From contig OMYF01000001.1 of the NCBI GenBank assembly GCA_900315205.1, forward strand, positions 1-64,000: a stretch of DNA of 64,000 nucleotides. Reading direction: 5' to 3'. The notes under the pieces were generated by a model that saw only the letters and a program-made list of their open reading frames with translations, did no database searches and was not told the DNA's origin. Every line of letters begins with the position of its first letter. Position 1 is the first letter of the stretch. The stretch is from an uncultured Acidaminococcus sp. Its GTDB lineage: Bacteria > Bacillota > Negativicutes > Acidaminococcales > Acidaminococcaceae. A program made the translations under genes and the position numbers. Below are positions 42,123 to 44,631 of this stretch, piece by piece.

Positions 42123-42451
42123 CGGATCCTCCCTGACTGCTGCAGAGGTTTGCAGAACCTGTGCCGTCCTGTCGGGGAGGATCTACTTTACATATTATAA
42201 ATATTCATACTATTGCAAACGTAAAATCCGTATCTTTTGACGGATGAGAACGAAGCATAAAACGAAAATACAGAAAAAAGATGAATGAATATAAGTAAAT
42301 TAACTAATATTTATAGGATAATGTTAATATTAATACAACATTTAGTCGTGTATACAGGATACTGTGAAAAAATTGTGAACTGACTTTACCCGAATAATAA
42401 AACGTGTAAGATAGTAATCGTTCATACCAATTATTTTAAGGAGGGGTAGCT
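42123..42451. other. AT-rich leader of the Nramp-like gene
   Basis: From about 42185 the DNA is AT-rich and non-coding. Candidate promoter parts are TGACTT (42381-42386) and TAAGAT (42407-42412), but the 20-base spacing is poor. AAGGAGGGG lies just before the ATG at 42452. No metal riboswitch or Mn/Fe operator is recognised. Confidence 0.4.
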
Positions 42452-43711
42452 ATGACAGCAACATCAACTAAAACGAAGAAGACGATGTGGCAAAGAATCA
42501 AAAGCATGGGACCCGGTGCAATCGTAACGGCGGCAGTAGTGGGGCCGGGGACAGTTACGACCTGCGGTCTGTCCGGGTATAATTTCGGGTACAGCCTGGC
42601 CTGGGCACTGCTGTTCAGTGTCATCGCCATGGTCATCATGCAGCTCATGACTTCCAAGATCGGTATCATCGGAGAGATGGGACTGGCAGATGCCATCCGC
42701 AAGGCATTCCTGAACAGTCCGGTCCGCGTCCCTTTGTTCCTGCTTCTTATTATTGCTATTTTCTGTGGTAACTGTGCTTATCAGGCAGGGAACGTAGTGG
42801 GTGCTTCCGTAGGTCTCGGCATTCTGTTCGGGCCGTACCGGACCGTCTTCTGCATCATCATTTCCGCGGTTGCTCTTGCTCTCGTACTGACCGGCAATAT
42901 CAAATATATCGCCAATGCCCTGACGGGCCTTGTCTTCATCATGGCCATCGTGTTCCTGCTGACCGCCATCATCGTGGGCGCGAATGTGGGCCATCTGCTG
43001 AGCGGCATGTTCATCCCCAGCATTCCTTCGGGCGCAATGCTGAATGCCATCGGCCTGATCGGCACGACGCTCGTCCCTTACTGCCTCTATCTGCATGCCT
43101 CCACAACGGCCAGCAATAAAGTGGCGGATAAGGACGATGCCCTGATCGATGCCAGATATGACTCCGTGACCAACGCAATCCTGACGGCCATCATTTCCAT
43201 CAGCATCATGGTTGTCGGGCACAGCCTGGCGCTGCGCGGCGAAACGGTAAAGGGCGTGGCTGAACTGGCCATGGGCCTGGAACCTCTTGCCGGTGCAGGA
43301 GCCAAGGCAATCTTCTCCATCGGTATCTTTGCAGCCGGCATCAGTTCTGCAACGACGGCCCCTCTGGCTGCTACCTATGTCATCACCGGTATCCTGGGCT
43401 GGTCCACTGATCTGAAGGATACAAAGTTCCGTACGATTACGACGATCGTGTTCATCCTTGGCTGCATCGTGGCCATCATGGGCGGCACGCCGACCAATAT
43501 CATCACCATTGCACAGGCTGTCAACGGTGTGGCTCTGCCTTTGAGCGTCTGCCTCGTGGTCTATGTGGCCAGCAGCTCCAAGCTTCTGGGGACCTATAAG
43601 AATTCCGGCATCCTGAACATTGCCGGCCTGGCAGTGCTTGTCATCACCCTCTTCATGGCTTACCGTACGTTTACCGTCTATGCACCGGCTCTGATGAAGA
43701 TGCTCGGCTGA
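42452..43711 (+). CDS. Nramp-related transporter lacking the metal-binding motifs (YcsG-like)
   Basis: The 419-residue protein has about 11 membrane helices and aligns with Nramp/SLC11 across helices 1, 2 and 6 (GYSLAWALLFSVIAMVIMQ, YLHAS). However, the helix 1 metal-binding DPGN is GPGT (residues 31-34), and helix 6 MPH is VPY (208-210), so the Asp, Asn, Met and His of metal transporters are all absent. It is followed by a DUF1445 gene. In Bacillus subtilis the Nramp-like YcsG is encoded with DUF1445 protein YcsI and the 5-oxoprolinase genes. A non-metal substrate such as 5-oxoproline or another small acid is a plausible inference. Confidence 0.85.
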   Translation: MTATSTKTKKTMWQRIKSMGPGAIVTAAVVGPGTVTTCGLSGYNFGYSLAWALLFSVIAMVIMQLMTSKIGIIGEMGLADAIRKAFLNSPVRVPLFLLLIIAIFCGNCAYQAGNVVGASVGLGILFGPYRTVFCIIISAVALALVLTGNIKYIANALTGLVFIMAIVFLLTAIIVGANVGHLLSGMFIPSIPSGAMLNAIGLIGTTLVPYCLYLHASTTASNKVADKDDALIDARYDSVTNAILTAIISISIMVVGHSLALRGETVKGVAELAMGLEPLAGAGAKAIFSIGIFAAGISSATTAPLAATYVITGILGWSTDLKDTKFRTITTIVFILGCIVAIMGGTPTNIITIAQAVNGVALPLSVCLVVYVASSSKLLGTYKNSGILNIAGLAVLVITLFMAYRTFTVYAPALMKMLG

Positions 43712-43729
43712 GAATCATCAAAATAAAGG

Positions 43730-43777
43730 AAAACTCCATGGGGTGTTGAAATGTAACCACATGGAGCTTTTCTTTTC
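43730..43777 (+). terminator. Hairpin with T-run after the Nramp-like gene
   Basis: CTCCATG (43734-43740) pairs with CATGGAG (43760-43766), with a GGT/ACC extension, followed by CTTTTCTTTT. It lies between the transporter and the DUF1445 gene, so read-through may set their ratio. Confidence 0.7.
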
Positions 43778-43807
43778 TGCTATCACGTTTACACAGGAGG
43801 AAAAAAC

Positions 43808-44617
43808 ATGGAAAATCAATATGCTCATTATACGCCTGCCCAGGTGCGGGAACTGATCCGCAAGGGTACCATCACTTCCAGTACGTCCGGGATGGCGGCA
43901 GGCTATGTGCAGGCGAACCTCATCTGCCTGCCCAGTGATTATGCGGATGAGTTCTACGAATTTGCCAAACTGAACTCCCAGCCCTGCCCCGTGCTTGAAG
44001 TCTTTAAGAAAGAACCGGTTTCCACTTTTCTGGCTCCCGGAGAAAATGTCCTGAGCAGCATTCCCTGGTACAATATCTATCGGGACGGCAAGCTGGAAAA
44101 AACGATTCCCGATGCCAATGAATACTGGAATGAAGATATGGTGGGCTTCCTGATCGGCTGCAGTTATTCCTTTGAAGAGGCACTGCTGAAAAACGGGATC
44201 GAGATCCGTCATATGACGCTGGGCACGCCCGTACCGATGTTCCGAACGACGATTGCCTGCAAGCCCTACGGACGCTTCCACGGCAATTACGTAGTCAGCA
44301 TGCGTCCCATGACGCCGGAAAATGCGGAAAAGGCAAAGGAGATCACGGAGAAATTCCCGCGGGTCCATGGCGGTCCCGTCCATATGGGTGATCCTGCAGC
44401 CATCGGCATCAAGGATGTGGCAAAGCCTGATTATGGCCAGCCCGTGCCGTTCCATGACGGCGAAATCCCTGTATTCTGGGCCTGCGGCGTGACGCCTCAG
44501 TTCGTTGTGGAAAACGTAAAGCCGCCCATTGCGATTTCGCATAAGCCCGGCTATATGTTCATCAGCGATATCCTGAACACGGAAATCGAACAAAAACTGG
44601 AAGAACGGGAAAAATAA
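43808..44617 (+). CDS. DUF1445 family protein (YcsI-like putative hydro-lyase)
   Basis: The 269-residue protein matches the DUF1445 family throughout: TPAQVRELIRKG and TSGMAAGYVQANL near the N-terminus, DMVGFLIGCSYSFEEALL (about residues 114-131), RHMTLGTPVPMFRTT and VRPMTPENAEKAKEIT-like MRPMTPENA (about 167-175), then HGGPVHMGDPAAIGI and FWACGVTPQ. DUF1445 also forms part of mammalian D-glutamate cyclase, which interconverts D-glutamate and 5-oxo-D-proline, while bacterial members are only annotated as putative hydro-lyases. CAGGAGGAAAAAAC precedes the ATG. Pairing with the Nramp-like gene is the main clue to its role. Confidence 0.88.
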   Translation: MENQYAHYTPAQVRELIRKGTITSSTSGMAAGYVQANLICLPSDYADEFYEFAKLNSQPCPVLEVFKKEPVSTFLAPGENVLSSIPWYNIYRDGKLEKTIPDANEYWNEDMVGFLIGCSYSFEEALLKNGIEIRHMTLGTPVPMFRTTIACKPYGRFHGNYVVSMRPMTPENAEKAKEITEKFPRVHGGPVHMGDPAAIGIKDVAKPDYGQPVPFHDGEIPVFWACGVTPQFVVENVKPPIAISHKPGYMFISDILNTEIEQKLEEREK

Positions 44618-44631
44618 GTCCGCAGCCACGC

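Follow-up and report, generated by a model that had tools for sequence, protein, structure and literature searches.

The window, a 64,000-nucleotide stretch of an uncultured Acidaminococcus genome (contig C82 of genome G000), carries an Nramp-fold transporter gene followed by a DUF1445 gene, and this pair is probably the transporter-plus-accessory half of a 5-oxoproline (pyroglutamate) utilization module, in which the transporter would import 5-oxoproline or a closely related cyclic amide. Import of 5-oxoproline rather than manganese is the most likely function because the metal-gripping residues of Nramps have been lost and close relatives lie in gene clusters for the conversion of 5-oxoproline to glutamate. 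Membership of an operon is better evidence for the pathway than for the precise compound. The features of the pair are as follows.

42438–42444, + strand: ribosome-binding site of the transporter gene (AAGGAGG; direct reading)
42452–43711, + strand: Nramp-fold transporter gene of the GPGT/VPY clade (419 amino acids; PF01566, E = 8e-75; AlphaFold2 model; motifs)
42542–42553, + strand: codons for GPGT (residues 31–34), in place of metal-binding DPGN in helix 1
43073–43081, + strand: codons for VPY (residues 208–210), in place of MPH in helix 6
43725–43776, + strand: hairpin with a T-rich stretch behind it, resembling a terminator or attenuator (fold energy −21.6 kcal/mol, z = −2.5)
43795–43800, + strand: ribosome-binding site of the DUF1445 gene (AGGAGG; direct reading)
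43808–44617, + strand: gene for a DUF1445/D-Glu_cyclase-family protein related to YcsI (269 amino acids; PF07286, E = 1e-64; NF003969 above cut-off)

Antisense open reading frames over both genes (for example, 43718–44629 on the − strand) were rejected as by-products of GC-rich coding sequence.

An Nramp fold without metal ligands

Alignment to solved Nramps placed GPGT and VPY on the DPGN and MPH positions, in agreement with the original prediction that the metal ligands are gone. Residues D56, N59, M230 and H232 (DraNramp numbering) are replaced by G, T, V and Y, and the acidic residue of TM3 (E134 in DraNramp) by N114, a neutral asparagine in all four window-type proteins. The window protein thus has none of the canonical Nramp/SLC11 signatures (DPGN in TM1, MPH in TM6 and the TM3 acid), and none of the five site positions compared is acidic. 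Judged from the aligned sequences, the replacement is a conserved change and no sequence error, because a wider alignment shows the same G, T, V and Y in all four window-type proteins and few departures from them across the GPGT clade. The protein scored below the cut-off of the NCBIfam MntH model NF001923 (159 versus 430 bits) and passed the broad model NF037982 (76 versus a cut-off of 50). The database annotation as a metal transporter was rejected, given the absence of the ligands.

The fold itself is retained, as had been predicted. An AlphaFold2 model built from 16 sequences (pLDDT 89.5, pTM 0.87) has the Nramp fold and is nearest to DraNramp (6d91; Z = 50.7, r.m.s.d. 2.3 Å over 386 residues), with Z scores of 46–51 against the canonical Nramps DraNramp and BfraNramp and 46 against EleNRMT.

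A second clade in the operon slot of YcsG

We placed the protein in a tree of 80 Nramp-fold proteins, built by a quick method with SH-aLRT support and containing several long branches; the deep joins between its clades are not firm. The tree separates canonical (DPGN), NRMT-like (DNDAGG) and YcsG-type proteins, a third type (VVVGPG[ST]), and GPGAIT and GPGT/VPY subclades. A single branch (SH-aLRT 100) sets all 30 YcsG-type rows (GPGFxTQ/GGxxGGYxxF) apart as a group from the window protein, and the GPGT/VPY set that includes the window type likewise has a support of 100. The NRMT motifs (DNDAGG-type TM1 and TPW-type TM6) are absent from the window protein, and NRMT-like rows form a clade of their own. 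The YcsG type was read through a Bacillus badius plasmid relative in place of B. subtilis YcsG (PDB 9A52), and the mumT-type locus from an Acinetobacter baumannii record of the same gene order (L182) in place of mumT of ATCC 17978. Metal ligands are absent from every YcsG-type protein read, including that of A. baumannii L182, and a GPG at the helix-1 break together with a Tyr at the helix-6 break is common to the window protein and the YcsG clade.

The original prediction likened the pair to YcsG–YcsI of B. subtilis. The parallel holds for operon context, which homologues of the pair share, but not for descent—the window protein is only 17–21% identical to YcsG-type proteins, does not carry their GPGFxTQ/GGxxGGYxxF signature and lies in a separate clade. 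Orthology with YcsG–YcsI was accordingly rejected on motifs and tree. As far as sequence comparison goes, the window protein is one of a second clade, likewise devoid of metal ligands, that occupies the same operon slot as the YcsG type.

Two further records deserve mention. A Klebsiella plasmid (L140, 6992–13171) carries an Nramp–PxpA–DUF1445–PxpBC–biotin carboxylase operon that is partly annotated as metal transporter/urea amidolyase, and relatives of its Nramp-like gene occur in 93 Klebsiella plasmid records. The A. baumannii record L182 is listed as a plasmid (pDETAB15) in PLSDB and appears to be a chromosome given its size of 3.66 Mb.

Gene neighbourhoods of the homologues

Neighbours were counted from profile matches; automatic picking of open reading frames was misled by antisense frames at several loci. 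The counts link the transporter strongly to both DUF1445 and the 5-oxoprolinase genes pxpABC, as the original prediction had anticipated. In a phylum sample of 249 genomes, all seven homologues of at least 40% identity have DUF1445 within 10 kb and pxp genes next to them, compared with 0 of the 61 other Nramp-family matches near DUF1445 (Fisher P = 1e-9, a guide only as the genomes are related). Two further orders added five such homologues, all beside pxpABC and four with DUF1445. Overall, a homologue of at least 40% identity sits beside pxpABC in 13 of 16 genomes; the three exceptions without adjoining pxp genes are the window genome, its sister genome (G001) and L071, in which a 73–75% identical homologue has neither DUF1445 nor pxp nearby. 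In an Oscillospiraceae genome (L183), the two window genes both have orthologues (73.4% and 73.6% identity), which stand in one Nramp–pxpB–pxpC–DUF1445 cluster; Fournierella (L184) retains pxpB–pxpC–DUF1445 without the transporter. This linkage makes 5-oxoproline, the compound originally proposed, the best-supported and a probable substrate.

The slot for a transporter in pxp clusters is filled by the window clade, by the YcsG type, by the third Nramp-related type (in DUF1445–Nramp–pxpB–pxpC–pxpA clusters; L188, L189) or by TRAP systems. At one DUF1445–TRAP–pxpABC locus (L162), the nearest PDB entries to the binding protein are 2PFY (E = 4e-90) and 2PFZ (E = 4e-75), the structures of DctP7 and DctP6 in complex with pyroglutamic acid (PMC3454389). 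One catabolic operon slot is therefore filled by at least two diverged Nramp clades, a third type and TRAP transporters.

Other members of the clade stand in other settings. Downstream of the haloarchaeal GPGT genes lie those for hydantoinase/oxoprolinase A and B, at two of three loci together with one for a racemase-like protein, and an acidobacterial member (L085) comes after a fused oxoprolinase. A subclade at 34–37% identity has an arginase-family gene downstream in all ten loci, a divergent IclR regulator and, at several loci, ATC-hydrolase (PF14196) and M20 genes. These IclR–Nramp–arginase-family clusters (L054, L064, L072–L074, L077–L081) occur in Acidaminococcus, Oscillospiraceae, Lachnospiraceae and Treponema, and the substrates of this subclade are likely to be other small molecules, either cyclic or guanidino compounds. 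Substrates probably differ within the clade, because subclades at 33–37% identity lie with the arginase family, ATC hydrolase and AllG.

The same neighbourhoods bear on an alternative in which the window protein, by the same mechanism, imports a related cyclic amide or ureide (hydantoin, thiazoline carboxylate, 5-oxo-D-proline or another lactam) and the DUF1445 protein is the first enzyme. The haloarchaeal loci, the ten-locus subclade, a member beside AllG and amino-acid-kinase-family genes (L192) and the separation of the window pair from pxp genes are all consistent with it. We nevertheless consider it unlikely, given that orthologues from the window subclade itself stand in a pxp cluster (L183), that homologues of at least 40% identity are pxp-linked in 13 of 16 genomes and that PxpABC is reported to be a 5-oxoprolinase (PMC13274462).

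The IclR–Nramp–arginase-family cluster may encode the breakdown of a cyclic or guanidino compound, and at L192 (225–9261) a 34%-identical GPGT relative stands among genes for AllG (oxamate carbamoyltransferase), an amino-acid-kinase-family protein and a CoA-ligase-like protein.

The pair in its own genome

No pxp genes were found adjoining the window pair in its own genome or adjoining its counterpart in G001, the only two of the Acidaminococcus genomes searched in which the pair is present. One pxpABC set was found in the window genome (contig C43, L052); it has neither transporter nor DUF1445 and is closest to a transporterless set of G001 (90, 72 and 72% identity). The window pair thus looks like the detached half of a pxp operon, a reading drawn from two genomes, the window genome being 90% complete. 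In G001, a gene for pyroglutamyl peptidase (PF01470) faces the pair in convergent orientation, and a YcsG-type gene sits in another pxp operon, so the GPGT/VPY protein may have a different job there. These observations weigh against the 5-oxoproline reading: both Acidaminococcus pairs lie away from pxp genes and the L071 homologue is without DUF1445 and pxp, to which must be added the manganese data discussed below for MntG and MumT, the other enzymes encoded beside the subclades at 33–37% identity and the hairpin between the two window genes.

The window genome also encodes a second Nramp-related protein, a relative of the third type (L051, 9046–14221, contig C42; motifs VVVGPGTVTTAS and MIYD), in the order ornithine-cyclodeaminase-family gene, Nramp-related gene, DUF1445 and sodium:dicarboxylate symporter; kin of this gene lie in pxp operons (L188, L189). 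Nramp-related proteins with GPGAITTAS occur at L053 (234–1499) and L059, in tandem in G004; no clear partner gene was found for them.

The DUF1445 gene and the intergenic hairpin

The adjacent gene is, as predicted, a DUF1445 gene, and the neighbour counts mark it as a likely functional partner of the transporter. Its product scores 217 bits (cut-off 25) against PF07286, the DUF1445 family now named 'D-Glu_cyclase', and keeps all 50 positions that are conserved in at least 95% of 99 relatives. Besides the G001 copy, its closest kin are the pxp-linked copies of L183 and L184 (L089 and L090 in the comparison). Across the phylum, a pxp gene lies within 7.5 kb of DUF1445 in 32 of 39 loci, 15 of the 39 also having an Nramp-like gene, and among 36 DUF1445 loci of Pseudomonadota (the phylum of L082) a pxp gene is present in 12 and an Nramp-like gene as well in 4. 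Other DUF1445 genes have TRAP or branched-chain-type ABC genes downstream.

We propose, because of the operon context and by analogy with the mammalian two-domain enzyme, that the DUF1445 protein may act on D-glutamate/5-oxo-D-proline or on 5-oxoproline. The original prediction invoked mammalian D-glutamate cyclase, which does contain DUF1445; however, activity has been shown only for the two-domain mammalian protein, in which either domain may be the catalytic one (PMC5339696). GLUCM-like_C (DUF4392), the other half of the mammalian enzyme, is paired with DUF1445 at at least five loci. A planctomycete locus (L190, 3–5442) combines a hydantoinase/oxoprolinase A/B fusion, a fusion of DUF4392 (GLUCM-like_C) with a Mur-ligase-like domain and then DUF1445, hinting at D-glutamate and peptidoglycan recycling.

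Co-transcription of the two genes is not assured, because the hairpin at 43725–43776 separates them and may uncouple them. It may be an attenuator. Alignment showed that it is also present in the sister genome (L055), with changed stem letters and the changes paired.

Proposed mechanism

The 42452 protein would be a secondary transporter of the Nramp (LeuT) fold in which the five replacements described above have neutralized the cation site. A central cavity without acidic ligands could admit an organic anion. LeuT-fold amino acid transporters can hold a carboxylate at the break in their helix 1; similarly, the carboxylate of the substrate would find free backbone amides and helix dipoles at the GPG break of the window protein, and the lactam could be bound by T34, Y210 and N114. 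PxpABC, encoded on contig C43, would then convert the imported 5-oxoproline to glutamate, which would feed the fermentation that Acidaminococcus is known to carry out. The description of the host as a glutamate fermenter in the original prediction fits what is known of the genus.

We infer the direction and coupling of transport, and since direction cannot be read from sequence, the protein could also export or exchange 5-oxoproline/glutamate, or serve as an Nramp-derived sensor that transports nothing. Spontaneous formation of 5-oxoproline inside cells (PMC13274462) and the detachment of the pair from pxpABC in its own genome would suit such a role, but the fold and helix-break motifs are intact and growth on external 5-oxoproline depends on the homologue PxpT (PMC13274462), which makes this reading highly improbable.

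Manganese or 5-oxoproline

Published work on the YcsG type is in conflict. Growth of Corynebacterium glutamicum on 5-oxoproline depends on PxpT, a protein with 50% identity to YcsG, as confirmed by complementation (PMC13274462), and an earlier study, as cited in PMC13274462 and PMC10448178, found that deletion of ycsG blocked 5-oxoproline use in B. subtilis. On the other hand, YcsG has been reported as the manganese importer MntG, overexpression of which raised cellular Mn (PMC10448178), and MumT of A. baumannii as a manganese importer in a 'urea' operon, deletion of which lowered cellular Mn and raised Mn tolerance (PMC5050338). The mumT operon is annotated as Nramp, LamB/YcsF (PxpA), DUF1445, allophanate hydrolase subunits 1 and 2 (PxpBC) and carboxylase (PMC2848557); by its gene content, this 'urea' operon reads as a 5-oxoprolinase operon. 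A 2026 preprint named the Nramp-related groups without metal motifs, with MntG in 'G-motif 3', and in January 2026 called them entirely uncharacterized except for NRMT and the hypothesized Mn importer MntG (PMC12873925). Use of YcsG as a precedent therefore stands for the 5-oxoproline link and is incomplete, as the same protein is reported as MntG. The original prediction's 'new role for the Nramp fold' had been anticipated: YcsG and PxpT already tie the fold to 5-oxoproline, and what is new is a second clade that probably shares this role.

The manganese data stand against a simple no-metal reading, though they were obtained in vivo and in another clade. They would suit a window protein that imports divalent metal (Mn2+) without canonical ligands and is co-expressed with 5-oxoprolinase because the pathway or its regulation needs the metal, as would the location of both mntG and mumT in pxp operons (PMC10448178; PMC2848557) and the finding of no DPGN-type Nramp in nine Acidaminococcus genomes. 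This we regard as very unlikely: the side-chain ligands and the TM3 acid are all replaced in the GPGT and YcsG clades (with D for E in one GPGT subclade), TRAP systems resembling 5-oxoproline binders occur in the operon slot as well, the window genome encodes a Fur-family protein next to a permease of the ABC-3 (Zn/Mn) type, and the Mn studies are indirect. A broader reading, which we put forward tentatively and at somewhat less than even chances, is that the clades with Gly for Asp in helix 1 (window GPGT, YcsG and third VVVGPG) are importers of small cyclic amides and ureides, chiefly 5-oxoproline, MumT and MntG included, and that their metal effects are indirect.

Nramp-related proteins without DPGN/MPH are widespread and annotated as divalent metal transporters. 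Genomic context assigns them a specific, testable candidate substrate, and the conflict between 5-oxoproline and Mn import becomes directly testable.

Comparison with known systems

PxpT (C. glutamicum), YcsG/MntG (B. subtilis) and PxpG (C. difficile) belong to the 'G-motif 3' Nramp-related group and share the Nramp fold with the window protein. As in the window protein, YcsG-type proteins have G for the metal-binding D and Y for the conserved H, and they occur in pxp operons with or without DUF1445; their motifs (GPGFxTQ/GGxxGGYxxF, as opposed to GPGT/VPY) set them apart as a separate clade. MumT of A. baumannii (mumTLUHC), published as a Mn importer in a 'urea' operon, shares the Nramp–pxpA–DUF1445–pxpBC arrangement of a 5-oxoprolinase operon with DUF1445, and its counterpart in L182 has the YcsG-type motifs GPGFLTQ/GGTVGGY, unlike the window protein. 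Canonical Nramp/MntH proteins (DraNramp, BfraNramp) have the same fold, but their metal-coordinating side chains in TM1 and TM6 are all replaced in the window protein. The NRMT Mg2+ transporters (EleNRMT) are also Nramp-related, and NRMT-like relatives keep acidic residues (DNDAGG/TPW versus GPGT/VPY). TRAP kin of Bordetella pertussis DctP6/DctP7 take the same operon slot beside DUF1445 and pxpABC (L162) but are an unrelated type of transporter. As for the partner gene, mammalian D-glutamate cyclase has a DUF1445 domain like the window protein and DUF4392 in addition, and the UPF0317/DUF1445 structures 2PIF and 3DB9, whose records give no enzymatic function, represent the same domain.
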